32,355 bases of DNA, taken from Acidobacteriota bacterium. GTDB taxonomy: Bacteria > Acidobacteriota > Thermoanaerobaculia > UBA5066 > Gp7-AA6. How positions within the stretch are numbered: the stretch's first letter is position 1; every line of letters begins with the position of its first letter. Position numbers and translations under genes: made by a program. Shown here piece by piece: positions 11,360-28,033 of this stretch. The notes under the pieces were generated by a model that saw only the letters and a list, made by a program, of their open reading frames with translations, did not search any database and was not told the DNA's origin. Location: positions 14,942 through 47,296 of the forward strand of contig QHVV01000109.1 in NCBI GenBank assembly GCA_003222385.1, read 5' to 3'.

Positions 11360-14302
11360 CTACATCCCGCTCCGGTCTTTCGCGCGGGCTCTCCGGTCTT
11401 CCTCCGGAGGCGGAACGGGCTCCGTCTCGGCGAGGAAGCGTCCCGTCAGGCTGGCGGAAGCCCGCCGAATCTCCTCGGGAGGTCCCTCGGCCACGATCCG
11501 GCCCCCCTCGTCACCCCCTCCCGGTCCCAGGTCGATGATCCAGTCGGAGGCCGCCAGGAACTCCAGGTGGTGCTCGACCGCGACGACGGAGTGGCCGCGG
11601 GAAATGAGCCGGCGGAAGGTCTTCAAGAGCCGGTTCACGTCGGAGGCGTGAAGACCGGTGGTCGGCTCGTCGAACAGAAACAGAACGCCGCGCGCCGTGG
11701 CCGGCCGGATCTCCAGGAACGAAGCGAGTTTCAAGCGCTGCGCTTCGCCGCCCGAAAGAGTGGCGGTGGGCTGGCCGAGCGGGAGATAGCCCAGACCGAC
11801 CTCCGCGAGCGGCGCCAGGCGCCGAACGATCGCAGTCTCGTCCGAGAAGAACGACATCGCCTCGTCCACGGTCATCGCGAGAACGTCGCCGATGTTCTTC
11901 CCGCGGTGCCGCACGGCGAGAACCCGTCCCTGGAACCGCCGCCCGTCGCAGACGTCGCACCGGACGGTGACGTCGGCTAAGAACTGCATGTCGATCGTCT
12001 GCCAGCCGGTCCCTTTGCACACCTCGCAGCGGCCGCCCGGCGAGTTGAACGAAAAGTCGCGCGCGGTGATCCGGCGCGATACGGCGCGCGCGGTCCGCGC
12101 GAAGACCTGCCGGATGTCGTCCCACGCCTTGGTGTAAGTGACCGGGTTGGACCGCGCCGATCGACCGAGCGGGCTCTGGTCGACGAGCAGGATGTCGGAG
12201 ACGAGCTCCAGTCCCTCGATCCGATCGTGTGCCCCGACGTCCAGCTGCACGGTTCCCTTGAAGCGCCGTGCATAGGAGTTGTGCAGGATGTCGCGCACGA
12301 GAGTCGACTTCCCGGATCCCGAGATCCCCGAGACCGCGACCAGGCGCCCGAGAGGGAACCGCACCGTCAGGTTCTTCAGGTTGTGCTCCCGCGCGCCGAC
12401 GACCGTCACCGCTCCTTCGGCGCGCCGGAAGGCGACCACGCGGCCGCCCCGCAACGTCCGCGTCGGAACCGCCGGGCCGCGGGGCGCCGGCCCGGCCTTC
12501 CCCTTCCCGGGGAGACCCCGGCGCCGCAGGAGCTCCCCCGTCGCCGAAGACTTCACCCGTGCGAGCGCGCGCGGCGTTCCCTCGAAGAGGAGCTGTCCGC
12601 CGAGGCTGCCGGCGCCGGGACCCAGGTCGATGACGTGGTCTGCCGCCTCGATCGCCTCGGGATCGTGCTCGACCACGACGACCGTGTTTCCGCGGTCCGC
12701 GAGGCGCCGCAGGATCGCGAGGAGACGCCGCGTGTCCACTGCGTGCAGGCCGATCGTGGGCTCGTCGAGCACGTAGAGGGTCCCCGTCAGAGAGCCTCCG
12801 AGCGCCGAGGCGAGACCGATCCTCTGGGACTCTCCCCCCGAAAGTGTTCGCGCCGCGCGCGAGAGCGTCAGGTACTCGAGCCCGACGTCGTTCATGTACC
12901 GGACGCGGGAACGGATCTCCGACACGACTGATCCCAACCGATCTTCTTCGGACGGATTGAGCGACAGCTCGTCGAACCACTTCTTCAAGTCCCGGAGCGA
13001 GAGATCCACCAGATCGGAGATCGTGCGTCCGCGGAACCGGACCCACAGCGACGGCGGGCCCAGGCGGGCGCCCCGGCAGTCGGGGCACAGGCGATATGCG
13101 CGATATCTCGCGAGCAGGACCCGGACGTGGATCTTGTAGCGCTTCGTCTCGAGCCACTCGAAGAAACCGTTGACGCCGTAGAACTCTCCCCTTCCCTTGA
13201 TCAGGACTTCCCGCTCGTGCGCGGAGAGCCGCTCGACCGGCACGTCCGTGCGGACCGAGTACCGCCGGCACGCGCGGAAGAGATCGTCGTAGGCGGACTC
13301 GTAGGCCGGCGTGTTCCAGGCCGCGACCGGACGCTCGTCCAGCCTCAGGCTCGGGTTGGGAATCACTTTCTCCAGATCCACTCCGATCACCCGCCCGAAG
13401 CCCTGGCAGGTCGGGCACGCCCCGAGCGGCGAGTTGAAGGCGAAGAGCGGGGGCGTCGGGTCGCGGAACTCGCAGCCGCAGGAGGGGCAGTGGAGGCCGC
13501 GGCGGAACGTCCGGGTGCCCGCGTCCGTGCTCGATAGCAGCGAGCCGGACATCGAGAACGCCGCCTCGGCCGCCGCCGCGATCTCGGGGCGCGATTCCTC
13601 CCGGACGATGAAGCGTCCGACGACGACCCGCAGGTTCCCGTCGGCGTCGAGGAGCTCCGCAACCCTTGCCGGGTCGTCCGGGATCTCGACGGTCTCACCC
13701 GACGGAGAAAGCGCCCGGAAGAAGCCGGCCCGCTTCAGCTCCGCGATCCGGAGGGCTTCGTCGCGCTCCTTCTGGCGGCGGCCCCGGCGCTTCTTCTCCC
13801 CGCCGCTGCCCTTCCAGTCGACGGGCGCCGCGAGGACGACGCGGGAACCCTCCTCCGACGTCGCCAGCTCCTCCACGGCGCGGTCGACCCCTCCGGGGAC
13901 CGCGGCGAGGCCGCAGTCCGGGCAAAACGTCGTCCCGCCGTGGGCGAAGAGAAGGCGGAGCGAGTCGTAGATCTCGGTCTGCGTGCCCACCGTCGAGCGG
14001 GCGTTTCGGACTCCGTTCTTCTGCTCGAGCGCGATCGCCGGAGGAACCGGTTCGATCGAGTCGACGTCGGGCCGGTCGAGCCGCTCCAAGAACTGCCGGG
14101 CATACGTGGAAAGCGACTCGGCGTACCGGCGCTGCCCTTCCGCGTAGAGCGTGTCGAAGGCGAGCGAGGACTTGCCCGAGCCGGAGACGCCGGTGACGAC
14201 CGTAATGCGGGAGAGCGGAATCTGGACCGAGATGTCCTTCAGGTTGTGGGTCCGCGCGCCGAGGATGCGGACGACAGGGGCGGGTCGAGGGTGTGACTTC
14301 AT
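11360..14302 (-). CDS. uvrA: UvrA, excinuclease ABC subunit A
   Basis: DNA-damage recognition ATPase of nucleotide excision repair, 980 aa from the ATG at 14302. The first P-loop is GVSGSGKSS (38-46) and the second is GISGSGKST; both halves have UvrA signature and Walker B motifs ([13 protein letters not shown] with [24 protein letters not shown] with [11 protein letters not shown]). Zinc-binding cysteines are visible as CPSCG...CPTCQGFG and CEVCKGTG...CDVCDGRRF. The UvrB-binding region (about 125-245) is present, so this is the main UvrA and not the UvrA2 type, but it holds a basic insert ([11 protein letters not shown]). A TTG four codons upstream (14314) is an alternative start; TAGATT lies 11 nt before the ATG. 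No uvrB or uvrC is in the window. Confidence 0.95.
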
Positions 14303-14320
14303 CGAACCGCTCAATCTACC

Positions 14321-14352
14321 AGAAAGAAAAAGGCCGCGGACGAACCGCGGCC
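14321..14352 (-). terminator. Rho-independent terminator
   Basis: Perfect 8-bp stem GGCCGCGG / CCGCGGCC (14332-14339 and 14345-14352) with a 5-nt loop. On the minus strand it is followed by TTTTTCTTTCT. It lies just after the stop of the secreted PCRLVDTR gene and separates it from uvrA, so uvrA needs its own promoter. Confidence 0.85.
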
Positions 14353-14375
14353 GCTCCGCAGAGAGTCGAGTCGAG

Positions 14376-15845
14376 CTACTCGGGCGAGGGTTGGGGCGTT
14401 GGTCGTTCGCGCTCCGCCCAGATTCGATCCCAGCCGAGTCGCTGCGCCGTTTCCATGTTAACCGTGCCGTCCGCGTTGTACGTGCCGTTCTGAATCAGCA
14501 GCTGCTTCTGGCCTTCTGTCAGGTACTGCGGCATCGTCGCGTCCGCGGACTTCGGCATGTACTCGTTGCCGTCGCCGATCGGCGACGTCAAATGCTTGTG
14601 GGTCCGCCGAATGCCGTTGACCATGTAGTAGAACTCGAGGTTCCTGGAGGACTGGACGACGATCTCGTTCAGGTCCGCCTTCATCACTCCGACGGACGCC
14701 ATTCCCCCGATCGGCGTGATCTGAACGGTCAATCCTTCTGAGTCGGTCACTAGCCGAAAGTCTTCCGGCACGGCGATCCGGGCCATTCCGCGCTCGAATT
14801 TTCCCCGCCCGCGGAAATAGGTCCCCGGCTCGGGCCCTTCGAGGGAGATGTATCGGATGACCTTCGACGCGTCCGTCGGATGAGGCTCGACGAAGAACTT
14901 CGCTCCGCCACCGCCGTAGTTGGCCGTCGACCAGACCCCGTAGCCGGGACCGGTGTTGTAGCCCAAGTATCCCTCCGCCAGCACCGCACCCGAGACGTTG
15001 ACCAGGGAGCCGGCGACCCCGACGACACGGGAAATCCCGAGAACACCCAGCTGGGTACTCTCGCCGCGAACGCCCGCCCCGGGATAGTTTCCGGGAAAGT
15101 TGAAGAAGGGTCCCTGCCGGCCGAACACGCCCGACGAAGCGATGCCGGCGTCGCCGGCGAAACCCGAGATCGCTCTCCCGGCTCCCGTGCTGGCAATGGT
15201 GACGTGTAACCCGCAGGAGCCCGTACAGCCGGTCGAGTTGTTCGCGAAGGTCGCCGTGGGGTTGTTGAACGAATTGTTCACCAGGTAAAAAGTATTCGCC
15301 TGGTTCGTCCACTGTTGCGAAAAGTATCCGTTGATGTCGATGATCAGGTCGGTTCCCGAAACGCCGGCGACGACCGTGATGTCCTGGTCGAGGCCGGCCG
15401 GCACGATCGCCGCGTTCGCGACCGTCTGGCCGGCGACGTAGTTGAGCGTGGAGACCGTCGGTTGAGAGGCTCCTTTTGGATAGATCAGGATGAAGCCGGG
15501 CCCCAGCGTATTCGTCACCGTGATGTTCAGAGAATAGGCGGAGATCACCGAGGGAAGGCCCGGACACGGGCCATTTTCCAGATCGAAGCTCCTCGGAACT
15601 CCGGCCGTGAGCCGGGGCGGACCGAACCCGGCCGGAAAGTTCGGGATCGTCGTCGTGCGCGTGTCGACGAGCCGGCACGGCTGAACACCGATGAAGGGCC
15701 GTGGCTCCGTCACGTCGGCCATTGTCGTGATTCCGGAGGATCGATACGGTGGAACCGTCCAGTTCGAGAGTGGAATGTCGGAAGACTGCGCGAAGAGAGT
15801 CAGGGACAGGAGACCGGTCGCGAGGACCGAGGCCAGAAGTCGCAT
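14376..15845 (-). CDS. secreted PCRLVDTR-type modular surface protein (short paralog)
   Basis: Protein of 489 aa with a signal peptide (about 1-20, ending LFAQSS). Three parts follow: an N-terminal beta-rich module (about 21-175) with [44 protein letters not shown] and [10 protein letters not shown]; a Gly-rich middle with GVxG-type units (GVRGES, GVLGIS, GVAGSL); and a C-terminal module from about 320 with [29 protein letters not shown] and [10 protein letters not shown], ending with [18 protein letters not shown]. The C-terminal part resembles a domain I know from tail-fibre-like bacterial surface proteins; the function is unknown. GGAGGTGAT lies just before the ATG, a near-perfect ribosome site. 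A paralog lies at 26324-27958 in the opposite orientation. Confidence 0.88.
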
Positions 15846-15899
15846 TCATCACCTCCAAAAAAAGAGGGGCGTTTGCGCGAATGCTATGGCGTGTCCCAC

Positions 15900-15934
15900 T
15901 TCGGGGAAAGCCCGAACTGAGGAGGCATCCTCAG
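15900..15934 (-). terminator. two adjacent hairpins at the end of the penicillin-binding protein gene
   Basis: CTGAGGA-ggca-TCCTCAG (15917-15934) covers the stop codon, and TTCGGG-gaaag-CCCGAA (15900-15916) follows directly. Both stems are perfect. No T-run follows on the minus strand, so this is at best a weak or Rho-assisted terminator, or an mRNA-end stabiliser. Confidence 0.45.
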
Positions 15935-18318
15935 TTTCCCGGCGGCCGGTCCCCTTCGTCTTCCGGAAACTCCTCCGGAGGCGGCGTGGGATACGGCTCG
16001 GGCTGCCCGAGGAACCCCTGGTGCTCCGGACAGAGCGCGGTCGGAGCGGTGCCCGCGATGAACACTTCGGTCACGCGCCGCGGACAACCGGGCGTCACGA
16101 GGAACCCGGTGTCCGGGTCGATATCGGCGGTCACGATGTCCGACGGCACGGGAAAACCTTCCGTGAAGAGCTGCGGAGGAAGCGATCGCGAATACTCGGC
16201 GAAGATCGGAACCGCTGCCTGGGCGCCGGACAAGCTCAACCCCCGGTTGTCGTCGTAGCCCACCCAGATCGTCGCGAGAAAACGGGGGGAGAAGCCCACG
16301 AACCAGGCGTCGCGGCCGTCGTTCGTCGTCCCGGTCTTGCCGGCGAGCACGCCGCGGAGACCGCCGGCGCGCGCGCCCGCGGCCGTTCCGCGGTCCACGG
16401 CGCCGCGCAGGATGGAGTCGATCAGAAAGACCGCGTCGGCCGGCAGCGCCTGCTTCAACGGAGTCTCCTTGCGCTCCAGGATGCGGCCGTCGGAGGTCAG
16501 GACCCCGACGATGGCGTTGGGCTCGACCCGGACCCCGCCGTTGGCGAGGACCGCGTAGGCGGAAGCGATCTCCATCGGCGAGATCTCGAAGGCGCCGAGG
16601 GCGACCGAGGGATAGGGCTCCATCCGGGAGCTGATGCCCGCGGCTCGCGAGGCGGCGAGGACCGTGGAGAGGTCGGCGGCCAGGGCCGCGCGCACCGTCG
16701 GGATGTTGATGGAGAGCTCGACCGCCCGGCGCACCGAGATCGGCCCGCGGAAGCCGTTGTCGTAGTTTCGCGGGGTCCAGCGCTCGGACGCTCGCCGGTG
16801 GCCCCATTCGACGGTGATCGGCGAGTCCGAGAGAATCGTCGCGGGAGTCACCGGCGGCGAAAGGTCCCGGCGCGCGAACGCGGAGAGCATGACGAAAGGC
16901 TTGAAGAGCGAACCGGGCTGGCGGTGCGCCTGGGTCACGCGGTTGAACTGCGACAGGCGGTAGTCGCGCCCGCCGACCAGCACCTTCACCGCGCCGGTCT
17001 GCGGCTCGAGCTGGATCAAGGCGCCCTGCAGCGGAGCATGCCGCGCCGCGACCGCGAGGCGCCGATACCGATTCTCGAGCGCCGCCAGGCCTCCCGTGAC
17101 CGCCCTCTGTGCGGCCTGCTGCAGATCGACGTCGAGCGTGGTGTAGATCTGGAGGCCTTGCGTGCGGAGCTTGCCGCCGTACGATTCGGTCAGCTCCGCC
17201 TTGACGAAGTCCACGAAGTGCGGCGCGATGATCTTCTGCGCTCGGCGCACGCGCGGCACGAGCGGGGATGCGATCGCCGACTCCATCTCGGGCCGGCCGA
17301 TCTTTTTCTGCTCCAGCATCTGCGCCAGCACGAGATTGCGCCGGTCGCGTGAACGGTCCGGGCTCCGGAACGGCGAGTAGGAGTTGGGAGCCTTGATCAT
17401 TCCCGCAATCGTCGCGGACTCGGCGAGGTCGAGATCCGAAACCTGCTTGCCGAAGTAGAACCGGGCGGCCTCGCCGACGCCCTTGATCGCGATCGAGCCG
17501 TGCTGGCCGAGATAGATCTCGTTCAGATAGGCCTGGAGGATCTGATCTTTCGAGTACCGCGCGTCGAGCACGACGGCCATCGCGGCCTCGACCGCCTTGC
17601 GGCGCAGCGTGCGCTCCGGAGTCAGATAGACGTTCTTGACGAGCTGCTGCGTGAGCGTCGAACCGCCCTGCACGGTGCCGCCGCGCATGGTCGCCAGAAT
17701 CGCACCGAACGTCCTCTTGATCGAAACTCCCGAATGCCGGTAGAAGTCGCGGTCCTCCGTCACGAGAATGGCGTCCGTCAGCGATTGCGGGACTTCTTCC
17801 AGACGGACCAGGGTCCGATCTTCGAACTCTTCGCCGAAGACCGCGCCGAGCCGCTCCGGCTCGACGACGAGGGCGGGGAGCGCGTCGCCGTGCTCGTCCA
17901 CGACCGAGCGTACGACGTCCCCGGCGAAGGAGATCCGCGCCCGGTACCCGCGAAACTGCCGCCCCGGATAGAAGAAGTCGCGCGTGAAAAGCTCGACGGC
18001 GTCCCCCGAGCGCCGGTAGTGTCCCGGCCTTTCCGGGGAGTCCGCCGACTTTTCGTAGAAGAGCCTTTCCAACTTCGCGACCAGGCGATCCGCGGATCCG
18101 GGGCTGCCGGGCTCGAGCAGGGTCAGATCCGAGTAGATCCGCGAGGGGAGATTCCAGTGCCGGCTGTCGAACCGCGCCGCGACGGCCGACCCGATGAATC
18201 CCACGAGCGCCGCGGCGAGAAGGACGACCGCCGCGCCTCCGAGAAAGACCTCGCTCTGGTGGCGCATCACCCAGATGGGAAGAGAAACGTGACGCGGGCG
18301 CGGCGCCGGAGAGCTCAC
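15931..18318 (-). CDS. bifunctional class A penicillin-binding protein, PBP1b type
   Basis: Peptidoglycan synthase of 795 aa with glycosyltransferase and transpeptidase activities. Order of parts: cytoplasmic tail, membrane anchor (about 25-47), a UB2H-like region (about 55-150, with RIYSDLTLLEPG), a GT51 domain with catalytic Glu in TEDRDFYRH (188-195) and GGSTLTQQLVKN (218-229), then the transpeptidase with S-x-x-K as SLFK (Ser470), S-x-N as SIN (536-538) and KTGTT (661-665). The UB2H-like region favours PBP1b over PBP1a. The C-terminus is Pro/Glu-rich. The GTG start at 18318 has TATGCT 9 nt upstream. It is divergent from the O-antigen ligase-like gene. Confidence 0.93.
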   Translation of the reverse strand: MSSPAPRPRHVSLPIWVMRHQSEVFLGGAAVVLLAAALVGFIGSAVAARFDSRHWNLPSRIYSDLTLLEPGSPGSADRLVAKLERLFYEKSADSPERPGHYRRSGDAVELFTRDFFYPGRQFRGYRARISFAGDVVRSVVDEHGDALPALVVEPERLGAVFGEEFEDRTLVRLEEVPQSLTDAILVTEDRDFYRHSGVSIKRTFGAILATMRGGTVQGGSTLTQQLVKNVYLTPERTLRRKAVEAAMAVVLDARYSKDQILQAYLNEIYLGQHGSIAIKGVGEAARFYFGKQVSDLDLAESATIAGMIKAPNSYSPFRSPDRSRDRRNLVLAQMLEQKKIGRPEMESAIASPLVPRVRRAQKIIAPHFVDFVKAELTESYGGKLRTQGLQIYTTLDVDLQQAAQRAVTGGLAALENRYRRLAVAARHAPLQGALIQLEPQTGAVKVLVGGRDYRLSQFNRVTQAHRQPGSLFKPFVMLSAFARRDLSPPVTPATILSDSPITVEWGHRRASERWTPRNYDNGFRGPISVRRAVELSINIPTVRAALAADLSTVLAASRAAGISSRMEPYPSVALGAFEISPMEIASAYAVLANGGVRVEPNAIVGVLTSDGRILERKETPLKQALPADAVFLIDSILRGAVDRGTAAGARAGGLRGVLAGKTGTTNDGRDAWFVGFSPRFLATIWVGYDDNRGLSLSGAQAAVPIFAEYSRSLPPQLFTEGFPVPSDIVTADIDPDTGFLVTPGCPRRVTEVFIAGTAPTALCPEHQGFLGQPEPYPTPPPEEFPEDEGDRPPGN

Positions 18319-18353
18319 GGGGGCAAAAGCATACCGTCATAACATCGCGCGCC
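18319..18353. promoter_or_regulatory. very short divergent promoter region
   Basis: Only 35 bp separate two divergent start codons. On the plus strand TAACAT (18340-18345) ends 8 nt before the ATG at 18354; on the minus strand TATGCT (18333-18328) ends 9 nt before the GTG at 18318. The -35 region of each promoter would lie inside the coding region of the other gene, and both mRNAs would be leaderless. Confidence 0.45.
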
Positions 18354-19739
18354 ATGGCGAAAAGAGGCCACGCGCGGAGGTCCGCTCGAGCTCCGAGCGC
18401 GCGCGCCGTCGCGCGTCCTCCTTCGCCGGCTGTCGTTCGGATTCCTTTCGCGGACGGCGTGACGGTGATCGGCCTCGTGTTCGTCGTCGTCGGAACCTCT
18501 CTCTTCGTCGACCCCGGGGCGTACGCCTCCTTCGAAGCGCCCAAGCGGCTCGTCGCGCTCGCGGGCGCGGCGGTGTGCGCATTCGCGGCCTTCGGCCTCG
18601 GGCGCGGCGCTTTCGGATGGGTCCGGGCGTGGCGGGAGATCCCGTTGCCCGCCCGCGTCGCGCTCGCCGCCTTTTCTTTCGCCCTCCTCTGGTGCGGGAT
18701 CGCGGCGGTCGCCTCTCCTTTCCGATCCGCGTCGCTCGATACGTTTCGAACGATCCTCCTCTACGCGCTGTTCGTTCCGCTCGGCGCGACGCGCGCCGCC
18801 GCGCGAGGGAAAGGCCTGCTCGTCGGGTCTCTCCTGGCAGCGACGGCGGCCAACGCCGCGCTTTCGCTTGCCCAGAGCCGCGGCCACAGCCCGTTCAAGC
18901 TCCAGACCTTCGGAACCCGAAACGAGACCGGCGCTCTCGCCGGCAACGTCGGGTACCTCGCCCTCGCACTGGCGATCGGCGCCGTTCTGGCTCTCGGTCT
19001 CGGACTGTCGGCCCGGTCCCGGCCGGTCCGCGCCGCCGCGGTCGCCGCGCTTCTCCTCTTTCTGGCGGGGCTCGTCGTGAATCGGAATCTGACGGCGCTC
19101 GTGTCTCTCGCGGCGGGGGGAGTCGTGCTCCTCGCGGTCCGCTTCGGACGGCGCTCGATTCTCGCGATGGTCGCGGTCGTGGCGGCGCTCGCCGCTGCGG
19201 CGGCCTTCTCGGCGCCGCTGCGCCACCGGATCGCCGAGACCGCGGGGATGGTCCGCGCGGGCGACTGGGACCGGTTGACGACGTACCGGACCGGAGCATG
19301 GGTGGCCGCCCTGGACATGGCCCGTGAACGGCCGCTCCTCGGTTGGGGCCCCGGGACGTACGCGGCGGAGTTCGTCCCGCACCGGCTCCAGGCCGAGATC
19401 CGCGCCCGACGCCGGTACGTCAACCCTCTGCTGACGAGCTCCTACTCGGAGGCGCACTGCGACTACCTGCAGGCGTTCGCGGAGACGGGCCTTCCCGGCG
19501 GGCTCGCGGCGATCGCGGCATTCGCCGCCTTGGTCGCCGGTCTCGCGCGGCGGACGGCCGATCCCGCGACTTCTCGCGCCGAACGGGCGATCCTGCTGGG
19601 GATTCTGGCCGCCGGCGCCGCGGCCGCGCTCACGTGGTTCCCGATGCAGCGTCCGATCTCCGCGACGCCGCTCCTGCTCGCGGCCGGTCGCAGCTGGAGG
19701 ATCGCGGCGGCCAGACGCGAAGAGGCGTTCCCGCCATGA
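18354..19739 (+). CDS. O-antigen ligase/polymerase-like membrane protein
   Basis: Polytopic membrane protein of 461 aa with about ten hydrophobic segments after an Arg-rich N-terminus. Near the C-terminus a large loop contains TYRTGAWVAALDMARERPLLGWGPGTYAAEF (core ALDMARERPLLGWGPGTY) and SEAHCDYLQAFAETGLPGG. The pattern P-L-x-G-x-G-x-x-x-F followed by H-(x)-x-x-L-(x)-x-x-x-E-x-G is typical of the WaaL/Wzy (Wzy_C) family, which joins lipid-linked glycans to an acceptor or polymerises them. The sequence cannot tell ligase from polymerase. Next to a glycan operon it probably handles the product of those enzymes. The stop overlaps the next start (ATGA). Confidence 0.85.
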   Translation: MAKRGHARRSARAPSARAVARPPSPAVVRIPFADGVTVIGLVFVVVGTSLFVDPGAYASFEAPKRLVALAGAAVCAFAAFGLGRGAFGWVRAWREIPLPARVALAAFSFALLWCGIAAVASPFRSASLDTFRTILLYALFVPLGATRAAARGKGLLVGSLLAATAANAALSLAQSRGHSPFKLQTFGTRNETGALAGNVGYLALALAIGAVLALGLGLSARSRPVRAAAVAALLLFLAGLVVNRNLTALVSLAAGGVVLLAVRFGRRSILAMVAVVAALAAAAAFSAPLRHRIAETAGMVRAGDWDRLTTYRTGAWVAALDMARERPLLGWGPGTYAAEFVPHRLQAEIRARRRYVNPLLTSSYSEAHCDYLQAFAETGLPGGLAAIAAFAALVAGLARRTADPATSRAERAILLGILAAGAAAALTWFPMQRPISATPLLLAAGRSWRIAAARREEAFPP

Positions 19740-20260
19740 GGGTCGCGCGCGCGATCGGACTGGGCGCCGTGCTCGCTTTCCTCTTCCGGCCCGAGGTCCC
19801 GCGTTACCGCGCGGAACGTCGGCTGGGCGCGGCGAGCGCGGCGTTCGAGTACGTGATCGACCGGCCGACCGAAGTCCAGGGTGCGCCGGCGATCCTCGAC
19901 CGGATCACCGACGCCGCCCTCGCAGCCGCCTCCGATCTGCCGGGCGACACCCGCGGGTGGACGCTCGCCGGCTCCTGCCAGCTCGTCAACGGCAACGCCG
20001 ACCGCGCGCTCGACTATTACCGGGAAGCGCTGGCGATCGAGGAGAGGGCCGAGATCCACCTGAACGTGGGCCGCGCGCACTCGCTGGCCGAAAAGCGGTT
20101 CGCGGCGGAGGCTTCGTTTCTCCGCGCGGTCTGGATCAGCCCCGCCCTCCTGCGCGCGGTGCCCAAGGAGTTTGCCGGATCGATCGAGGCCGAGCTCCAC
20201 CGGATGGAGAAAGAGCTGGCTGCGGGGAGGCTCGCGGCGCCGCCGGCGCGAGCGGATTGA
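19736..20260 (+). CDS. TPR-containing protein, partner of the O-antigen ligase-like gene
   Basis: Protein of 174 aa that starts within the stop of the preceding gene (ATGA), so the two are translationally coupled. The N-terminus (ARAIGLGAVLAFLF) may be a short membrane anchor or signal. Residues about 75-135 look like two TPR helical hairpins (LAGSCQLVNGNADRALDYYREAL, core NADRALDYYREAL; then AEIHLNVGRAHSLAEKRFAAEASFLRAV, core HLNVGRAHSLAEKRF). TPR domains fused to or encoded next to Wzy-type proteins are common and may help assemble glycan machinery; that role is inferred. The gene converges on the glycan operon with a 19-nt gap and no visible terminator. Confidence 0.75.
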   Translation: MRVARAIGLGAVLAFLFRPEVPRYRAERRLGAASAAFEYVIDRPTEVQGAPAILDRITDAALAAASDLPGDTRGWTLAGSCQLVNGNADRALDYYREALAIEERAEIHLNVGRAHSLAEKRFAAEASFLRAVWISPALLRAVPKEFAGSIEAELHRMEKELAAGRLAAPPARAD

Positions 20261-20279
20261 ACGGGACCGCGATCCGCGA

Positions 20280-21080
20280 TCAGCCGGAGGAGTCCCGGGT
20301 CTCGCGGCCGGGAAGCGGGGCGGGCACGGTCGGCGGCGCCGCGGTCCGGAAGATCCGGCTCGACCAGACCCCCCACTCGTGGAGCTTGAAGAGACCCATC
20401 GTCTTCAGGATCGCCAGCCCGTAACGCACCGAAGGTCCGAAAGCGATCTGAGACGCTTCGTCGAAGTACCGCGTCTCGATCGGGATCTCGCGGATCGTCA
20501 GGCCGTGCGCCATGCCTTGCGCGATGATCTCCGTGTCGAAGACGAATCCGTCCGAGTTTGCCTCGAAGTTGACAGCCTCGAGGTACCGGCGCGTGTAGGC
20601 GCGAAACCCGCTGTGGTACTCGGTCAGGTAGATCAGGAACGTCGAGTTCTCGACCGCCGTCAGAAGGATGTTACCGAGGTACTTCCACTTCGGCATTCCG
20701 CCCTGGATCGGCCGGCCCCCGAGCATCCGGCTGCCGAACACCGCGTCGCATCCGGAACGCTGCAGGGTTTCCAGCAGGTCCGGGATGACCCGCGGGTCGT
20801 ACTGGTGGTCGGGGTGGACCATCACGACGATGTCGGCTCCCCGATCGAGCGCCGTGCGGTAGCAGGTCTTCTGGTTCCCCCCGTAGCCGCGGTTCTTCGG
20901 ATGGACCACGACGTGAAGGCCGAGCCGCCGCGCGATCTCGACCGTGCGGTCGCGTGAAGAGTCGTCGACGAGGATGACGTCGTCCACGGAGCCCACCGGG
21001 ATGTCGGCGAACGTCTTCTCGAGCGTGCGCTCCGCGTTGTACGCGGGCATGACGACGGCGATCTTGCCGTGCCGGCCCAT
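20280..21080 (-). CDS. family 2 glycosyltransferase, polyprenol-phosphate mannosyltransferase-like
   Basis: Protein of 266 aa with a GT-A fold and no membrane segments. Key motifs are VVMPAYNAERTL at the N-terminus, VILVDDSSRDRT, HPKNRGYGGNQKTCY, the nucleotide-sugar/metal site VMVHPDHQYDP, and GFRAYTRRYLEAV. This is the pattern of the DPM1-like branch of GT2, which transfers a sugar to a polyprenyl phosphate. The exact donor cannot be read from the sequence. It is the last gene of the glycan operon, 2 nt after the sugar transferase gene. The frame reads further upstream only as a shadow. Confidence 0.9.
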   Translation of the reverse strand: MGRHGKIAVVMPAYNAERTLEKTFADIPVGSVDDVILVDDSSRDRTVEIARRLGLHVVVHPKNRGYGGNQKTCYRTALDRGADIVVMVHPDHQYDPRVIPDLLETLQRSGCDAVFGSRMLGGRPIQGGMPKWKYLGNILLTAVENSTFLIYLTEYHSGFRAYTRRYLEAVNFEANSDGFVFDTEIIAQGMAHGLTIREIPIETRYFDEASQIAFGPSVRYGLAILKTMGLFKLHEWGVWSSRIFRTAAPPTVPAPLPGRETRDSSG

Positions 21081-21082
21081 GG

Positions 21083-22483
21083 CTACACCCCTCGCCGCGT
21101 CAGGATCACGCGCAGGGTCTTGAGCAGGATCGAGAGATCCAGCCCGAAAGACCAGTTGTTCAAGTAGGCGAGATCGTACCGCAGCTTGATCTCGGGCTCC
21201 GTCGAGTACTCGCCGGAAACTTGCGCGAGTCCGGTCAGCCCGGGCCGCACGGATTGGCGCAGGGCCCATCCCGGCACGGTCCGCGTGAACTCGCGCGTGA
21301 ACTCGGGACGCTCCGGTCGAGGGCCCACGAGGCTCATGTCTCCGCCGAGGACGTTCCAGAGCTGCGGGATCTCGTCGATTCGCGCGGAGCGCAACGACCG
21401 ACCGATGCGCGTCATGCGGGGATCCCGGGGGGAGGCGAGGACCGCGCCCGTCTCGACCTCCGCGCCCCTTCGCATCGTGCGAAGCTTCCACAGCTCGAAG
21501 AGACGCCCGCCCCGGCCGACCCGCGTCTGGCGATAGAAGACGCCTCCGACCGACGTGCCGAGCACGGCGAGCGCGGCGAGCGCGAGCACCGGGGACAGAA
21601 GAAGGAGAAGCGTCGACGCGACCACGACGTCGAAGGCGCGCTTGACGAAGGCGCCGAGCGGCCGGAACGGCTGTCGCCGCGCCTCCAGCAGCGGGAGATC
21701 CCCCACGATCCGGAAGCGCAGTCTTCCGATCATCGTCTCGAACGGCGAAGGCCAGACGAGCAGGTCCGCCCGCCAGCCTTCCGGAATCGCCTCCGAGATC
21801 CGGTCCCGCCAGGACGTTTCCTCCCGCGCCAGGATGACCTCGTCGACCCTCTCGTTCTCCACGATTTCCGCCAGCCGGTCGACCGCCCCGAGGTAAGGCA
21901 ACGCGCGGATCGCCTCCGAGGCGTTCGCCACGGCGGCCTCCGGCGAGTCGGAGGCGCTTTCGGCGACGACGCCGACGATCTCGACTCCGCTCCAGGGGTG
22001 ACGCCGGACCGTTTCCGCGATCCGCGCCGCGGCGGGCCCCGTCCCGACGACGAGCGCCCGCCGGCGCGGCAGCGGGAAGAGCCGGTCGAGCGCGGCGCGC
22101 CACGCGGCGAGCAGGATCCCGTCGCCGACCAGGTATCCGACCAGCACGGACCGCGGAAACGAGTACGCGGGCGCCAGGAAGTAGAACGAAGCGAGCGTGA
22201 GCAGCTGGAGAAAGAGAGCTGGCAGCAGCAGCCGCGCGGGCGGCTCCCGGAAGCGCTCGTGCTCTCCGTAGAGCCCGATGAACCATAGCGAGAACACCTG
22301 CACGGCCAGGATCAGGGCGACGTTCCAGATCCCGAAGCGCACGTGGCTGGCGGGGAGCAGCGTCTCCGTGCCCGGAAGCGGGACGCGAGTCCGCAGGAAG
22401 AACGCTCCGTAGAGCGCGGCGAGCGAAATCGCCGCGTCGCCCGCGAGGGCCGCGAGCCGGAACGCGGTATGCGACCGCTTCAT
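21083..22483 (-). CDS. polyprenyl-phosphate sugar-1-phosphate transferase (initiating enzyme)
   Basis: Protein of 466 aa that should start glycan synthesis by moving a sugar phosphate to undecaprenyl phosphate at the inner membrane. The N-terminal part has about four membrane segments, then a nucleotide-binding-like domain (RALVVGTGPAAARIAE), then a membrane segment (KRAFDVVVASTLLLLLSPVL) and the catalytic bacterial sugar transferase domain with FYRQTRVGRGG, LWKLRTMRRGAE, RSARIDEIPQLWNVL, MSLVGPRPERPEF and RPGLTGLAQVSG. This architecture is that of WcaJ/WbaP-type enzymes. The start ATG at 22483 begins the signal-like MKRSHTAFRLAAL; upstream sequence in frame is not protein-like. A 62-nt gap separates it from the preceding gene. 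Confidence 0.93.
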   Translation of the reverse strand: MKRSHTAFRLAALAGDAAISLAALYGAFFLRTRVPLPGTETLLPASHVRFGIWNVALILAVQVFSLWFIGLYGEHERFREPPARLLLPALFLQLLTLASFYFLAPAYSFPRSVLVGYLVGDGILLAAWRAALDRLFPLPRRRALVVGTGPAAARIAETVRRHPWSGVEIVGVVAESASDSPEAAVANASEAIRALPYLGAVDRLAEIVENERVDEVILAREETSWRDRISEAIPEGWRADLLVWPSPFETMIGRLRFRIVGDLPLLEARRQPFRPLGAFVKRAFDVVVASTLLLLLSPVLALAALAVLGTSVGGVFYRQTRVGRGGRLFELWKLRTMRRGAEVETGAVLASPRDPRMTRIGRSLRSARIDEIPQLWNVLGGDMSLVGPRPERPEFTREFTRTVPGWALRQSVRPGLTGLAQVSGEYSTEPEIKLRYDLAYLNNWSFGLDLSILLKTLRVILTRRGV

Positions 22484-22545
22484 CGAGCTTTCTTTTCCGA
22501 TCCGAACCGCCGTCCGTCGCTCCCGATCGACGGCCGACGCTCCGG

Positions 22546-23679
22546 TCAACGAGCGGTCCGTTTCCAGGCGGGTCTCCGATAGCCCGCGAGTCCCGCGACG
22601 ACGCCCGCGGCGAGCGCGAGATTGATCACGCCGAAATAATAGAGCCTGCCCGGCCGGCCGGCGAGGCGCGGCCGGAGGCGGACCGAAGCCGCCAGAACGA
22701 CGAGCACCGCGATGGCCGCGAGCGCGAAGGGGCGCAGCATGGAGGAACCGAGCGCGCAGAGAAGCGCCCCGAGCGCCAGGACCGGCGCGAGCCAGCGTGA
22801 CGCTTTCCGCGAAAGGAATGCGAGAGCGAGGAGCGGCCGCCGGCGGACGTCGAACAGCCAGGTCTCCCGCCGCAGCACGTCGCCCGCACCGAGACCGATC
22901 CGGAATCGGCGCGACGTTTCCGCCGCGACGTTCGCGGGCGCCGTCTCGCGCGCAACGGCGTCGCCCGTGAAGACCACCTTCCGGCCGGACCGGGCGATTC
23001 GCGCGGGGATCAGGAAATCGTCCAGGACGGCGCCGTCTGGGAGCGGTTCGACGAGCTCCCGGCGGGCCGCGTAGATCGCGCCGTTGGCGCCCAGGCACAC
23101 GCCGAGCTTTCCCTCGATCTCTTTCAATCCCGTCTCGCGGTCCCAGAACTCCGTTTCGGGCGTCGCTCCGCTTCCCGGCGGCGCGATGAGGACGAGCCTG
23201 CCGCACGCGGCACCGACTTCGGGATTCGAAAACGATGCCGCCAGGCGCGCCACGGCGTCCGGCTGGAATTCCGAGTTGGCGTCGGTGAAAACGAGGACCT
23301 CCGCGCTCGACGTCCGAACGAGGTCGTTGACGACCGCGGCTTTTCCGCGGCGGCGGTCGAACTCCTCGACCCGGACCCGTCCGTCCCCCGCGGCGCGAGC
23401 GCGCTCCGCGGTGGCGTCGCCGCAACCGTCGCAGCCGACCGCGATCGCGAGACCGCGGACGTACTCCTGCGCGAGCAGGTTCCGGACCCGGGGGCCGATC
23501 GACGCCTCTTCATCGTGGGCGGCGATCACGACCTCGACCGATGGAAGGGCCGGCGAGGGATCGATCGTCCGAACGGGAACACTTCGCGCGAGGCGCGAGA
23601 GAAAGGCGGGATATCCCCAGTACGACCAGGCGACGAGGAGGAGCGCGAGAGCCGCGAGACCGGTCGCCGCTCCGGTCAA
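22546..23679 (-). CDS. membrane-bound family 2 glycosyltransferase
   Basis: Protein of 377 aa with an N-terminal membrane segment (about 5-22), a GT2 catalytic domain and two or three membrane segments at the C-terminus. Motifs are VEVVIAAHDEEASIG, AVGCDGCGDAT, KAAVVNDLVRTS, VFTDANSEF (the DXD equivalent) and LDDFLIPARIARSG. The QXXRW motif of processive synthases is replaced by SRRFRIGLGAG, as in several non-processive relatives. The TTG at 23679 was chosen because it overlaps the stop of the upstream gene (TTGA); the rest of the upstream frame is a shadow of that gene. Confidence 0.88.
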   Translation of the reverse strand: MTGAATGLAALALLLVAWSYWGYPAFLSRLARSVPVRTIDPSPALPSVEVVIAAHDEEASIGPRVRNLLAQEYVRGLAIAVGCDGCGDATAERARAAGDGRVRVEEFDRRRGKAAVVNDLVRTSSAEVLVFTDANSEFQPDAVARLAASFSNPEVGAACGRLVLIAPPGSGATPETEFWDRETGLKEIEGKLGVCLGANGAIYAARRELVEPLPDGAVLDDFLIPARIARSGRKVVFTGDAVARETAPANVAAETSRRFRIGLGAGDVLRRETWLFDVRRRPLLALAFLSRKASRWLAPVLALGALLCALGSSMLRPFALAAIAVLVVLAASVRLRPRLAGRPGRLYYFGVINLALAAGVVAGLAGYRRPAWKRTAR

Positions 23680-24860
23680 CGGCGGGTCTCCGCGCGGCGC
23701 CGGAGCTCGCGGGAGAAAGACCGCCCGATGGAGTCCCAGCCGTAGAGCGCTTCGACGCGACGTCGGGCGGCCACCGCCTGCCGCCGCCGCGCCTCGGCAT
23801 CCGCAAGGAGCTCCGTGACCGCGCGGGCGAAGCGTTCTGCGTCGTCGGCGATCCGGATCTCGCCCGGGTCGGAGAGCTCCAGGCCCTCCGCTCCCACGGA
23901 CGTGGAAACGACCGGGACGCCGCACGCCGCGGCCTCCAGGATTTTCAGCCTCGTGCCGGCCGCTGCCTGGAGCGGCACGACCGCCACCGCCGCGCGCGCC
24001 CAGTGCGGGCGCGTGTCGCCTCCTTCGCCGAGAAAGGCGAACCGCTCCTCCTCGTTCGTGGCGATGGGGGCGCCGCGGCCGAGGACTTCGGCGCGCGCGG
24101 ACGGCCGGGCTCGGCCCACGAGCGGCCAGACCTCTCTTCGGAACCAGGCCATTCCCTGCGCGTGGGGAGGCCAGGCGAGGTCCCCCACGTAGAACACGAT
24201 CTCCTCGCGCGCGGGCTCGCCGCGGAACGGGTACCGCTCGAGATCCACCCCGTTCGGAACGAGCACGCGCGGCACGTCGGGGGCGAGCCGAGCGAGGAGC
24301 GACGCTTCGCGCTGCGACACGCAGGAGATCCCGGCCGCGCGGGCGACCAGGCTCGCCTCGACGCGCGAGACGCGGGGCGCCTGCGACCGCGCGAATGCCC
24401 GCGCGAACCGCGACGAGGCGCTCTCCCCCATGCGGCGCCAGAGCTCCGAATCGAGGTTGTGAAAGTCGATCCAGAGCGGGCCGAACTCGTCGGGCGCGAG
24501 CGGCGCGACGTGGTAGGAGTGCGCGACGATCCAGGAAGGCTTCTCCGTCGACGCGAGATTTCGAAGGCGGGCCGCGAGAGGCCGGGAACGATAGAGAAAC
24601 GGGGAGTACGCGCGCCCGACCGCGCTCGCCGCCAGCGCCGCCGCGCGCCGCACGGGAACGGCCGACTGGGGAAAGCGCTCCCCTTCGACGCCCGCCGGGA
24701 GCTCCTGAGGCAGCTCGCGCAGGTGAGGCGGAAGGAGGACGAAGGCGCGGACGCGGAAGTCGTCGGCGACGGCTCGCAGGAGGTGAAAATTGCGGATCGC
24801 CGACCCGTCCCGCGTGGGATGGGGCGGACGCGGGCAGATCGCGTAAAGGAGCGGCTTCAT
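23676..24860 (-). CDS. family 4-type glycosyltransferase (GT-B fold)
   Basis: Protein of 394 aa with no membrane segments. The N-terminal half has PRPPHPTRDGSAIRNFHLL and IDFHNLDSELWRRM; the C-terminal half has VPNGVDLERYPF, YVGDLAWPPHAQGMAWF, AVVPLQAAAGTRLKILEAAACGVPVVSTSVGAEGLEL (core GTRLKILEAAACGVPVVST). The E-x-x-A-x-G-x-P-V-V pattern is the nucleotide-sugar site of GT4/GT1-type enzymes. The start ATG overlaps the stop of the upstream gene (ATGA). It should add a sugar to the lipid-linked chain; the donor is unknown. Confidence 0.92.
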   Translation of the reverse strand: MKPLLYAICPRPPHPTRDGSAIRNFHLLRAVADDFRVRAFVLLPPHLRELPQELPAGVEGERFPQSAVPVRRAAALAASAVGRAYSPFLYRSRPLAARLRNLASTEKPSWIVAHSYHVAPLAPDEFGPLWIDFHNLDSELWRRMGESASSRFARAFARSQAPRVSRVEASLVARAAGISCVSQREASLLARLAPDVPRVLVPNGVDLERYPFRGEPAREEIVFYVGDLAWPPHAQGMAWFRREVWPLVGRARPSARAEVLGRGAPIATNEEERFAFLGEGGDTRPHWARAAVAVVPLQAAAGTRLKILEAAACGVPVVSTSVGAEGLELSDPGEIRIADDAERFARAVTELLADAEARRRQAVAARRRVEALYGWDSIGRSFSRELRRRAETRR

Positions 24861-25768
24861 GCCCTCCGGGGCGGCCCGGCGAGAGCGGCGCGGTACCGGG
24901 AGCGTCGAAGCCGCCCGCGCTCCCCCGGCGTCAGGAGGGAGATCGCGTAGCGGGCCGCGGCGCCCGCCCGCAGAACGAGTCGTGCGAGCCGCGCCGCTAT
25001 GGTGCCCTGATGGCGGGCAACGTGTTGCGCGAGCCCCTCGTGAAGCTGCCCGAAGAGCGCGTCGCCTCCGGAGCGGCCGCCTTTGTGGACGACGCGTGCG
25101 GACGGCTCGAAAAGAATGCGCCAGCCGCGCCGCCGGAGCCGGGCGCAGAGGTCGCTCTCTTCGGCGTAGAGGAAGAAGCTTTCGTCAAATCCGCCGACCT
25201 CCTCGAACGCGGACCGTCGGATCAGGATTGCAGCACCTTTGACGCATTCGACGGACTGCGGTCGCGAGTGGCCTTCGCGGGTCGCGGAGTGCCCGCGCAG
25301 CGGTCCCCTTCCGCCCGAGAGAAACGCGAGGCCCGAGCTCTCGCAGAAGACGCGCCACAGCGTCGGAAGTCTCAGAATCGACGGCTGGAGAGTTTCGTCC
25401 GGGTTCGTCAGACGCGGCCCAACGGCGGCGGCGCGCGGATCACCGTCGAGCGCCGCGACGAGCGCCTCGACCGCACCGGCCTGGACGAACGAGTCGGAAT
25501 TGAGCATCAGGAGAAAGGGTCTGCTCGTTTCTCGCGCCCCGCGGTTGCAGGCCGCGCCGTAGCCGCCGTTTCGCGCTTCGACGAGGAGCCGGGCCGCCGG
25601 CGTCTCGGCCTGCAGGCGTCGCGCGATGTCGTCCCCCGATGCGTTGTCGACGACGACGACCTCGACGTCCGGCGCGGCCGCGGCGAGCGCCTTCACGGCT
25701 TCGGTCGTCTCCTCCGGCGTCTTGTAGTGGACGATGACCGCGGACACGCGGGCTCCCACGGAACTCAC
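24857..25768 (-). CDS. family 2 glycosyltransferase, WbbL/rhamnosyltransferase-like
   Basis: Protein of 303 aa. Motifs are VSAVIVHYKTPEETT, VVVVDNASGDD, NGGYGAACNRGAR, LLMLNSDSFVQAG (metal/nucleotide site) and GGFDESFFLYAEESDLCARLRRRGW (core FDESFFLYAEESDLC). The FxYxEexDL pattern is characteristic of the WbbL-like branch, several of which are rhamnosyltransferases; that specificity is only inferred. It is the first gene of the glycan operon. The GTG at 25768 is the annotated start; a second GTG three codons later (25759) is possible, and no good ribosome site helps to choose. A TATACT hexamer (25916-25911) about 140 nt upstream may be the operon promoter. Confidence 0.88.
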   Translation of the reverse strand: MSSVGARVSAVIVHYKTPEETTEAVKALAAAAPDVEVVVVDNASGDDIARRLQAETPAARLLVEARNGGYGAACNRGARETSRPFLLMLNSDSFVQAGAVEALVAALDGDPRAAAVGPRLTNPDETLQPSILRLPTLWRVFCESSGLAFLSGGRGPLRGHSATREGHSRPQSVECVKGAAILIRRSAFEEVGGFDESFFLYAEESDLCARLRRRGWRILFEPSARVVHKGGRSGGDALFGQLHEGLAQHVARHQGTIAARLARLVLRAGAAARYAISLLTPGERGRLRRSRYRAALAGPPRRA

Positions 25769-26323
25769 CTTGCCGGCTTGCGCTTCAAAGTCTCGACCGG
25801 TTCATGCGACGAAGGTCGAAGACGACCTTGCCGAAGATCCAGGGCGTTGTGGACGCACCGAACGATAGCGGCGAGGCATCCCTGGCGCCGACTGAGCTCA
25901 TCGTGTCGGAAGTATAGGTTCCGGAAGACCGTCGCACCTTGCTGGTCTTCGCCAGGCGACAAGGGCCCACGGCCCGTTCGCCGAGGCCTTCGCTTTCCGT
26001 TGCTGTTCCTGCGTCGGTCGCTCGCGGGCAGGCCGGGCCACGGAGCTCCTTCTCGACCAGAGTCGCACCGGACCTCGGAAGCGCCTCTTCCGACGGCAGC
26101 GATATGATCTTTTCAATCGCGCGCCGGTCATCCGGCAACGGAATCCGTCTCTTGAATCGTGACACGGAAGGCAGGTTTTGCAGACATCTCCCGCGGCCGT
26201 TTTGTCACGGAAGGAGGTCGTGGATTCGCAGGATGCCTCGGGAGTGCAGGTCGCGAATTCGAGCATCCGATCTCGAAAGCCGAATCAGGTTGCGATCATG
26301 ACCAACAATATGGAGAACGTTCA
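25769..26323. other. 555-bp gap with no convincing gene
   Basis: This divergent gap separates the glycan operon from the second PCRLVDTR gene. The short open frames in it have no recognisable motif and overlap each other, so none is called. Visible elements are a TATACT hexamer on the minus strand near 25911-25916, an inverted repeat GAAGACC / GGTCTTC (25924-25930 and 25944-25950) with a 13-nt loop, and a wider inverted pair CGTGACA / TGTCACG (26158-26164 and 26203-26209). These may belong to a long regulatory leader, a small RNA or a decayed gene; I cannot tell which. Confidence 0.5.
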
Positions 26324-27958
26324 ATGAAGCTCTCGATGTCAAAGTTCTCTCTTTCGTTACTGGCAGGGGTACTCGTCGGCGGCGCGCTCCTCGCCGTCGA
26401 TCTCCCTCTCTCGAACTGGACGGTCCCGCCATATCATCGTGCGGAAGCCTCCGGGGGACTCACCACGATGGGGGACATTACTCCCGGAATTGGTTTCGTC
26501 GGAGTCGATCCGTGCCGGCTCGTGGACACCCGTGCGGCGACGACACCGAACTTCCCGGCAGGATACGGGCCCCCGTCGCTGAGCCAGGGCTCGCCACGCA
26601 ACTTCGACTTGAATTCCGACCCGCAGTGCCCGGGCATACCCGCCGCGGTGGAAGCATACTCGCTCAACATCACTGTTACGAATACTCAAGGTCCCGGATT
26701 CATCCTCATCTACCCTCAAGGAGGCACCCAACCGACCGTCTCGACGGTCAACTACGTTGCCGGCCAGACGATCGCGAACGCAGCGATCGTTCCGGCCGGA
26801 GCGGGCGGCGGTGTGACCGTCATCGCAGGAGTTTCTGGCACCGACTTGATTATCGACATCAACGGGTACTTCACTGGCGAGTACAACCCAGGCGTCCGGC
26901 TTTTTGCGCAGATCACATCGACTGGTGGGGCGGTCCAAGGGAGAAATCTCTCGACCGCCTCGGGCGCCTATGGCGTCGAGGGGAGTATCTCGACGACGTC
27001 AGCTGGATCGGCTTCGGCCGGCGTTCGCGGCATCAACGACGGCACGGGGTCTTCGGGCGTCGGCGTTTGGGGATCCCAGGCCGGTAGCGGGTGGGGCGTC
27101 CTCGGCCAAGCGCCGACGGGCTACGGCGTCGTCGGGAGAGTCGCAACAGAGATCGCCAACAAGGCAGGAGTGATCGGGCAAACGGGATTCGTCAATCCGG
27201 CCGGCAGCTACTCTTCGGCGGGCGTTCGTGGGGAGGGGAGAGAGGGCGTGCTCGGGATTAGCGGAAACTTCCTGGGCGGAGGTGAGGGAGTCGCAGGATC
27301 TCTGGTGGACGGCTTCGGCGCCGAGATCCGATACGGCGCACTTGCAACCAGTTTCGGAACGGACCCCGGCGGCGGCAGCGCACCGTGGGCGGTCTTCGGG
27401 GGTGGCGACATCGGCGCGACCGGTGCCAAGTTCTTCCTCGATCCGCATCCGACCGACGCGACCAAGGAAATCGCCTACATCTCGCTCGAGGGGCCAGAGG
27501 CCGGGACGTATTTCCGCGGGCGCGCGAAGTTCCAGAACGGCATGGCGCGGATTCCTGTGCCCGAGCATTTCCGATTCGTGACGGATCCGGAGGGGCTGAC
27601 CGTCCAGATCACGCCGATCGGGGCAATGGCGACCTTCGCGGTCCTGAAGATGGACTTGAACGAGATCGTCGTTCAGGCGTCCCGCAACGTGGAGTTCTCG
27701 TACCTGGTCCAGGGCGTTCGCGCCAGCTTCAAGGACGTTTCCCCGATTCGGAGCAGCGACTTTCTGCCCCGGTCGGCCAACGCGAAGATGCCGGGGTGGT
27801 TGAGCTCCGCGCAAAAACGGCTGCTCATCCAAAACGGAACCTACCGGGAAGATGGAACGGTCAATACGGAGACTGCGCGGCAGCTCGGCTGGGACAAGGT
27901 CTGGGAGGAGCGTTCGCGGCCCGCGCCGCAAGCCGCTCCGCAGCCAGTGACGCCCTAG
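26324..27958 (+). CDS. secreted PCRLVDTR-type modular surface protein (long paralog)
   Basis: Protein of 544 aa from the ATG at 26324, which has GGAG 8 nt upstream; the frame upstream is not protein-like. A signal peptide (about 1-26) is followed by [44 protein letters not shown] and [10 protein letters not shown], almost as in the paralog at 14376-15845. The middle is about twice as long and has many Gly-rich units (GVEGSI, GVRGIN, GVWGSQ, GVLGQA, GVVGRV, GVIGQT, GVRGEG, GVLGIS, GVAGSL), which suggest a beta-solenoid or fibre. The end again has [40 protein letters not shown] and [15 protein letters not shown]. Probably an exported surface or matrix protein; no anchor signal is visible. Confidence 0.88.
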   Translation: MKLSMSKFSLSLLAGVLVGGALLAVDLPLSNWTVPPYHRAEASGGLTTMGDITPGIGFVGVDPCRLVDTRAATTPNFPAGYGPPSLSQGSPRNFDLNSDPQCPGIPAAVEAYSLNITVTNTQGPGFILIYPQGGTQPTVSTVNYVAGQTIANAAIVPAGAGGGVTVIAGVSGTDLIIDINGYFTGEYNPGVRLFAQITSTGGAVQGRNLSTASGAYGVEGSISTTSAGSASAGVRGINDGTGSSGVGVWGSQAGSGWGVLGQAPTGYGVVGRVATEIANKAGVIGQTGFVNPAGSYSSAGVRGEGREGVLGISGNFLGGGEGVAGSLVDGFGAEIRYGALATSFGTDPGGGSAPWAVFGGGDIGATGAKFFLDPHPTDATKEIAYISLEGPEAGTYFRGRAKFQNGMARIPVPEHFRFVTDPEGLTVQITPIGAMATFAVLKMDLNEIVVQASRNVEFSYLVQGVRASFKDVSPIRSSDFLPRSANAKMPGWLSSAQKRLLIQNGTYREDGTVNTETARQLGWDKVWEERSRPAPQAAPQPVTP

Positions 27959-27985
27959 TCCCTCGGCTTCCCCGGACAAAGAAAA

Positions 27986-28014
27986 GGCCCCGGCTCGCGC
28001 CGGGGGCTTCGTTT
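27986..28014. terminator. bidirectional Rho-independent terminator
   Basis: Stem CCCCGGC / GCCGGGG (27988-27994 and 27999-28005) with loop TCGC, followed on the plus strand by TTCGTTTT and preceded by GAAAAG, which reads CTTTTC on the minus strand. It sits between the convergent secreted-protein gene and groEL and can serve both. Confidence 0.8.
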
Positions 28015-28033
28015 TGGAATCGAAAGAAACCGA

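Follow-up and report, generated by a model that had tools for sequence, protein, structure and literature searches.

Two genes for predicted secreted, mosaic adhesin fibres flank an independent glycan cluster in an Acidobacteriota genome

We argue that two genes of an Acidobacteriota bacterium are stand-alone genes that likely encode secreted, probably trimeric, mosaic adhesin fibres, which combine a conserved base with an exchangeable tip in a manner resembling the mosaic adhesive trimers of Bdellovibrio. Both genes lie in the 32,355-nucleotide stretch of DNA analyzed here (hereafter the window), which corresponds to G000:C53:14942-47296 of a 3.6 Mb assembly. The first (fibre gene 1; 14376-15845, minus strand; 489 aa) specifies a signal-peptide-like N-terminus, an N-terminal module (N module; 15321-15701, minus) running from PCRLVDTR to DINGYF, a variable, Gly-rich middle with GVxG motifs that is a putative trimeric shaft (14910-15311, minus), a C-terminal module (C module; 14592-14909, minus) and a tail, and is followed immediately 3′ by a terminator-like hairpin of 8 GC pairs and a T run (14332-14352, minus). 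The second (fibre gene 2; 26324-27958, plus strand; 544 aa) has the same architecture, with its N module at 26489-26872 (plus; AlphaFold model m34f206da6542, mean pLDDT 84), a middle with 9 GVxG-type motifs and 26% Gly at 26876-27406 (plus), and its C module at 27407-27733 (plus; AlphaFold model md718a577cc1c, mean pLDDT 88); the terminator-like hairpin 3′ of it (27988-28005, plus) is called on both strands and is shared with the convergent GroEL gene.

The two proteins align end to end with 53% identity (E 3e-179), and their likeness is therefore not a matter of chance. The identity is unevenly distributed, reaching 74% in the N module, 36% in the middle, 71% in the C module and 58% in the tail, which bears out the original observation of two open reading frames with preserved end modules around a diverged Gly-rich GVxG middle, in which the motifs turn out to be irregularly spaced. 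Pfam, NCBIfam and PDB sequence searches with both window proteins returned no match, including no Pfam match to a C-terminal Peptidase_S74 domain (PF13884) in either of them, and a search for related loci with the full-length alignment retrieved no relatives. Export is supported by sequence, as is the homology of the tip described below: signal-peptide-like N-termini are present in 5/5 paralogs of the source genome (G000) that carry both modules (N+C paralogs).

The C module is homologous to the C-termini of phage fibres. It matches the PHROG families phrog_28536 and phrog_17490, both of unknown function (E 6e-13 to 3e-14), as do all 64 aligned members, and no Pfam model matches the module. 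It occurs by tblastn in 47 phage records, mostly of cyanophages, at 28-40% identity, and its phage carriers include cyanophage proteins, a Flavobacterium “tail fiber-like” protein and an Arthrobacter “minor tail” protein, all encoded in tail regions. It was likewise found in at least 549 places in viral contigs, at or near the C-terminus of those ORFs that were examined; its model compares with viral minor-tail and tail-fibre models at a best E of 1.3e-8 and weakly matches the cyanophage Pam1 tailspike and the R2 pyocin fibre. Among bacteria, it is present in 27 genomes of a phylum sample of 247, where it stands behind other N-terminal domains, and is patchy within the order (6/19 genomes). 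Given this kinship, the two genes might be regarded as encoding the tail fibres of a prophage, a tailocin or an extracellular contractile injection system resident in G000. We nevertheless reject such an origin as extremely improbable, for the proteins have signal peptides, the neighboring genes are housekeeping and glycan genes as opposed to a tail-gene cluster, the phage records that we searched lack the N module, and a search for Baseplate_J gave no match in G000 and positive results in three control genomes.

The N module is an all-beta domain of 125 aa, placed after the signal-peptide-like N-terminus and a short linker, in which two Cys residues are invariant across the family. None of 60 members matches a Pfam or NCBIfam model. 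The module is common among named Acidobacteriota genomes and also occurs, at lower identity, in Streptomyces plasmids. In Acidobacteriota it mostly closes secreted proteins as a tandem of two or three copies (79 of about 108 ORFs, loci L190-L263), an arrangement that suggests a role in surface retention or sorting; the domains found on these proteins include BACON, SBBP propeller, Tachylectin, RCC1, Big and protease domains. When it is instead N-terminal, the signal peptide and N module are usually followed by the GVxG middle and C module, by YadA-like repeats and a Peptidase_S74 (S74) domain, or by collagen with or without BclA_C, such that S74, collagen or BclA_C tips are found on the relatives' proteins. 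In a genome of the same family, one locus (L200:9785-13141; contig DAHUXD010000065.1) joins an N module to collagen repeats with five CBM5/12-like inserts and bears no phage-type tip. The best structural match of the N-module model is the beta-sandwich of the Bdellovibrio fibre Bd2133 (8ond, 8ok3; E 1.7e-4 to 5.4e-4), with modest TM-scores of 0.40 by query and 0.52 by target, followed at a weak level by the BC2L-C lectin domain and CBM6/CBM29.

These weak lectin and CBM resemblances, together with the fusion of C-terminal N modules to BACON, Tachylectin, beta-propeller and protease domains, would also be expected if the window proteins were secreted matrix or carbohydrate-binding proteins without a surface anchor, which cross-link the extracellular matrix by binding polysaccharide through both of their end modules. 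We consider this unlikely, since by itself it does not explain why S74, collagen and phage-type tips are exchanged under one and the same N module, even if it is partly compatible with the mosaic fibres that we favor.

The modular architecture and the swapped tips of the mosaic fibres are established by the present comparisons, and the best-supported account of how such fibres might work is as follows. The signal peptide would take the protein out of the cytoplasm, whereupon the all-beta N module would serve as a base that keeps the fibre at the envelope or within the matrix, probably by binding a glycan or some other component of the surface; we infer this retention because the module is used at both N- and C-terminal positions. 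The Gly-rich GVxG middle would form a trimeric beta-helical shaft, a reading based on its Gly content and motifs, the structure models being of single-chain domains, and the C module would cap the shaft as a trimerizing and/or receptor-binding tip. S74 tailspikes are homotrimers, as are collagen and BclA, and it is for this reason that we expect the fibres to be trimeric. We presume that they act in adhesion. By keeping the base and varying the shaft and tip, the paralogs could provide a single cell with several binding specificities, as has been proposed for the Bdellovibrio fibres. Mosaic diversification of this kind fits the presence of the C module in only some genomes of the order, the conserved ends around a variable middle, and the fact that copies on contigs C53 and C148 of the source genome are less identical in their C than in their N modules. 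The earlier description of the pair as secreted surface fibres thus gains support from the signal-peptide-like N-termini, the Gly-rich shaft, the phage tail-fibre C-terminal domain, and the S74, collagen and BclA_C tips of other proteins that carry the N module.

The source genome holds about 24 N-module genes on about 17 contigs, among which eight fibre genes fall at five loci, two of them adjoining glycan genes. Five of the eight are N+C genes, three on C53 and two in tandem on C148, and three encode an N module with Peptidase_S74 (PF13884; contigs C169, C136 and C93). The other N-module proteins, which include GSDH, M12B-protease and PKD/Ig proteins, have the N module as their last domain and end in NGYF or similar. 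The third N+C gene of C53 (G000:C53:48239-49999; L036:8239-9999) lies in plus orientation 0.9 kb past the end of the window, downstream of a GDP-mannose dehydratase gene and of another gene read as a sugar dehydratase. On C148, the neighboring genes resemble those for a large secreted protein, a multihaem cytochrome and AroA (names read from sequence), and the second copy of the tandem pair (L037:6739-8553) has a C-terminal end that runs on in another frame, which points to a frameshift in this copy or to an error of assembly. The three S74 paralogs (L038:6145-7782, L039:6630-8129 and L040:7549-8913) have S-S-x-x-x-K where the S74 motif is S-D-x-x-x-K, and cleavage in them may differ. The one on C93 (L040) is 2.1 kb from a family 2 glycosyltransferase (GT2) gene and near aminotransferase-like and methyltransferase-like genes, which makes it a second fibre gene beside a glycan locus. 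When the flanks of the paralogs were compared, no mobile-element ends in common were detected; the comparison yielded nothing beyond short patches resembling terminators and, on C148, a leader that is duplicated.

Between the two window genes lies a cluster (15931-25768) encoding a PBP1b-type synthase with Transgly, Transpeptidase and UB2H domains, a Wzy_C ligase, a TPR protein and five glycosyl or sugar transferases, which we treat as context outside the fibre system. The two genes do point outward and do enclose PBP1b, the Wzy_C ligase and all five transferases, as originally noted; however, because a third paralog follows 0.9 kb beyond the window, they do not bound a set. The same note had proposed a dedicated unit, in which the fibres would be made with, act on or be modified by the products of the enclosed peptidoglycan and glycan genes. 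In its favor, three N+C paralogs share one contig with glycan genes, a tandem N+C array in genome G178 adjoins GMD-like and GT2 genes, and the S74 paralog on C93 has a GT2 gene nearby. The synteny of the cluster largely refutes it, however. Both other members of the source genome's family, G001 and G002, keep the gene order UvrA, PBP1b, Wzy_C, TPR, GT2a, sugar transferase, GT2b, GT1 and GroEL/ES (the G001 cluster being in two contig pieces, and GT2b and the sugar transferase being called as one ORF in G002), with cluster proteins 45-91% identical to those of the window, and neither has a fibre gene at either site. Where the window has 1628 bp between UvrA and PBP1b (14303-15930), of which fibre gene 1 accounts for 1470, the corresponding gaps are 127 bp in G001 and 217 bp in G002; fibre gene 2 lies in the gap between GT2 and GroEL in the window (25769-28033), whereas the distance from GroEL to the glycosyltransferases is 272 bp in G002 and 4323 bp in G001, where other genes fill it. 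Since both relatives keep the cluster without fibre genes, the cluster does not need the fibres and is independent of them. Given in addition that each fibre gene has its own terminator-like site and that paralogs are scattered through the genome, we regard a dedicated unit as very unlikely.

The adjacency of UvrA and PBP1b (11360-18318 in the window; L177 and L179) is itself kept within the family; near PBP1b in genomes G194 and G249 stands another UvrA paralog, about 42% identical to that of the window. A locus on contig C8 of G178, in which UvrA, a GMD-like gene and glycosyltransferase genes stand beside the N+C array, was considered as a case of shared synteny and discarded: its UvrA shares only 44% identity with that of the window, as against 77-78% for the G001 and G002 orthologs, and it is therefore a separate locus.

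A looser association between fibre and glycan genes would be visible as proximity. Of nine fibre loci, three have a GT2 match within 5 kb, where 0.6 would be expected (P about 0.016; the share of the genome within 5 kb of a GT2 match being 7.8% in G000 and 4.6% in G178, with a rate of 0.05 assumed for G259), which speaks for the dedicated unit as well, but over all N-module loci the count is 3/20 and is not significant (P about 0.17), and the copies on C148, C169 and C136 of the source genome and on C19 and C41 of G178 have no GT2 gene within 5 kb. As the loci were counted after the data had been seen, we take the proximity as a hint of a weak tendency at best. The expected link of the paralogs to glycan genes thus survives in this weak form among fibre loci, while most copies are scattered elsewhere. 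Such a tendency, and the patchy distribution of the fibre genes in the order (exemplified by the C module), could be explained if the cell's own fibres were attracted to the hypervariable regions of surface-glycan genes, in which genes for recognition tend to come and go together, with no mechanistic coupling between the two. We consider this possible though rather doubtful, as the loci are few, were counted post hoc and mostly lie elsewhere.

Taken together, these findings lead us to raise, more tentatively, the possibility that Acidobacteriota own a large mosaic fibre system, in which the N module, a beta-sandwich, would be a universal surface-retention tag, N-terminal on trimeric fibres with phage-type, S74, collagen and BclA_C tips in exchange and C-terminal, often in triplets, on many secreted enzymes and propellers, and which would serve to recognize other bacteria or surfaces, being similar to the Bdellovibrio fibres yet separately evolved and sharing its tips with phages; we would rate this as somewhat less probable than even. 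We found no description of either module in the literature on Acidobacteriota. With the N module present in many copies per Acidobacteriota genome and the C module very common in phage contigs, both without a Pfam model, these modules could allow a large number of secreted proteins now labeled “hypothetical” to be given names together. Should the N module prove to be a surface tag, it would offer a simple way to study by experiment the surface of Acidobacteriota cells, about which little is known. The principle of one conserved end with swapped phage-like tips would likewise be extended to Acidobacteriota, for which we found no such description in the literature.

Among known systems, the phage tail-fibre and minor tail proteins, such as those of cyanophages and of Arthrobacter phage Mufasa8, share the C module (phrog_28536/phrog_17490) in C-terminal position, but have no N module and are part of virions. 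Tailspike-type proteins with Peptidase_S74 (the endosialidase chaperone) are matched by the PF13884 domain of three N-module paralogs in G000, whereas the two window proteins lack it and the paralogs deviate in the motif as described above. Trimeric surface fibres of the BclA/collagen type have counterparts in N-module relatives that carry Collagen, alone or together with BclA_C, and one of these belongs to the source genome's own family (G001), while the window proteins contain no collagen repeat. The MAT (mosaic adhesive trimer) superfamily of Bdellovibrio bacteriovorus, finally, has been described (Caulton et al. 2024, PMC10769870) as comprising proteins with a signal peptide, a conserved beta domain of ~130 aa and a trimeric fibre, the tip of which can be exchanged and is either S74 or non-S74; the structure of their N domain has not been solved (PMC10769870). 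The Acidobacteriota proteins resemble them in having a signal peptide followed by a conserved beta-rich domain of ~125-130 aa and a variable shaft, in carrying S74 and non-S74 tips beneath a conserved N end in many paralogs (five N+C and three N+S74 in G000), and in the likeness of the N-module model to the Bd2133 beta-sandwich tip. They differ in being shorter (489-586 aa, where MATs typically have ~1000), in having the phage SLEGPE-type module as their non-S74 tip, in using the N module also at the C-terminus of other secreted proteins, often in three copies, and in belonging to a host that is not a known predator. We therefore liken them to MATs by their shared plan and not by homology of the N domains, and, without filing them as members of that superfamily, suggest by analogy that these fibres probably work in the same way.
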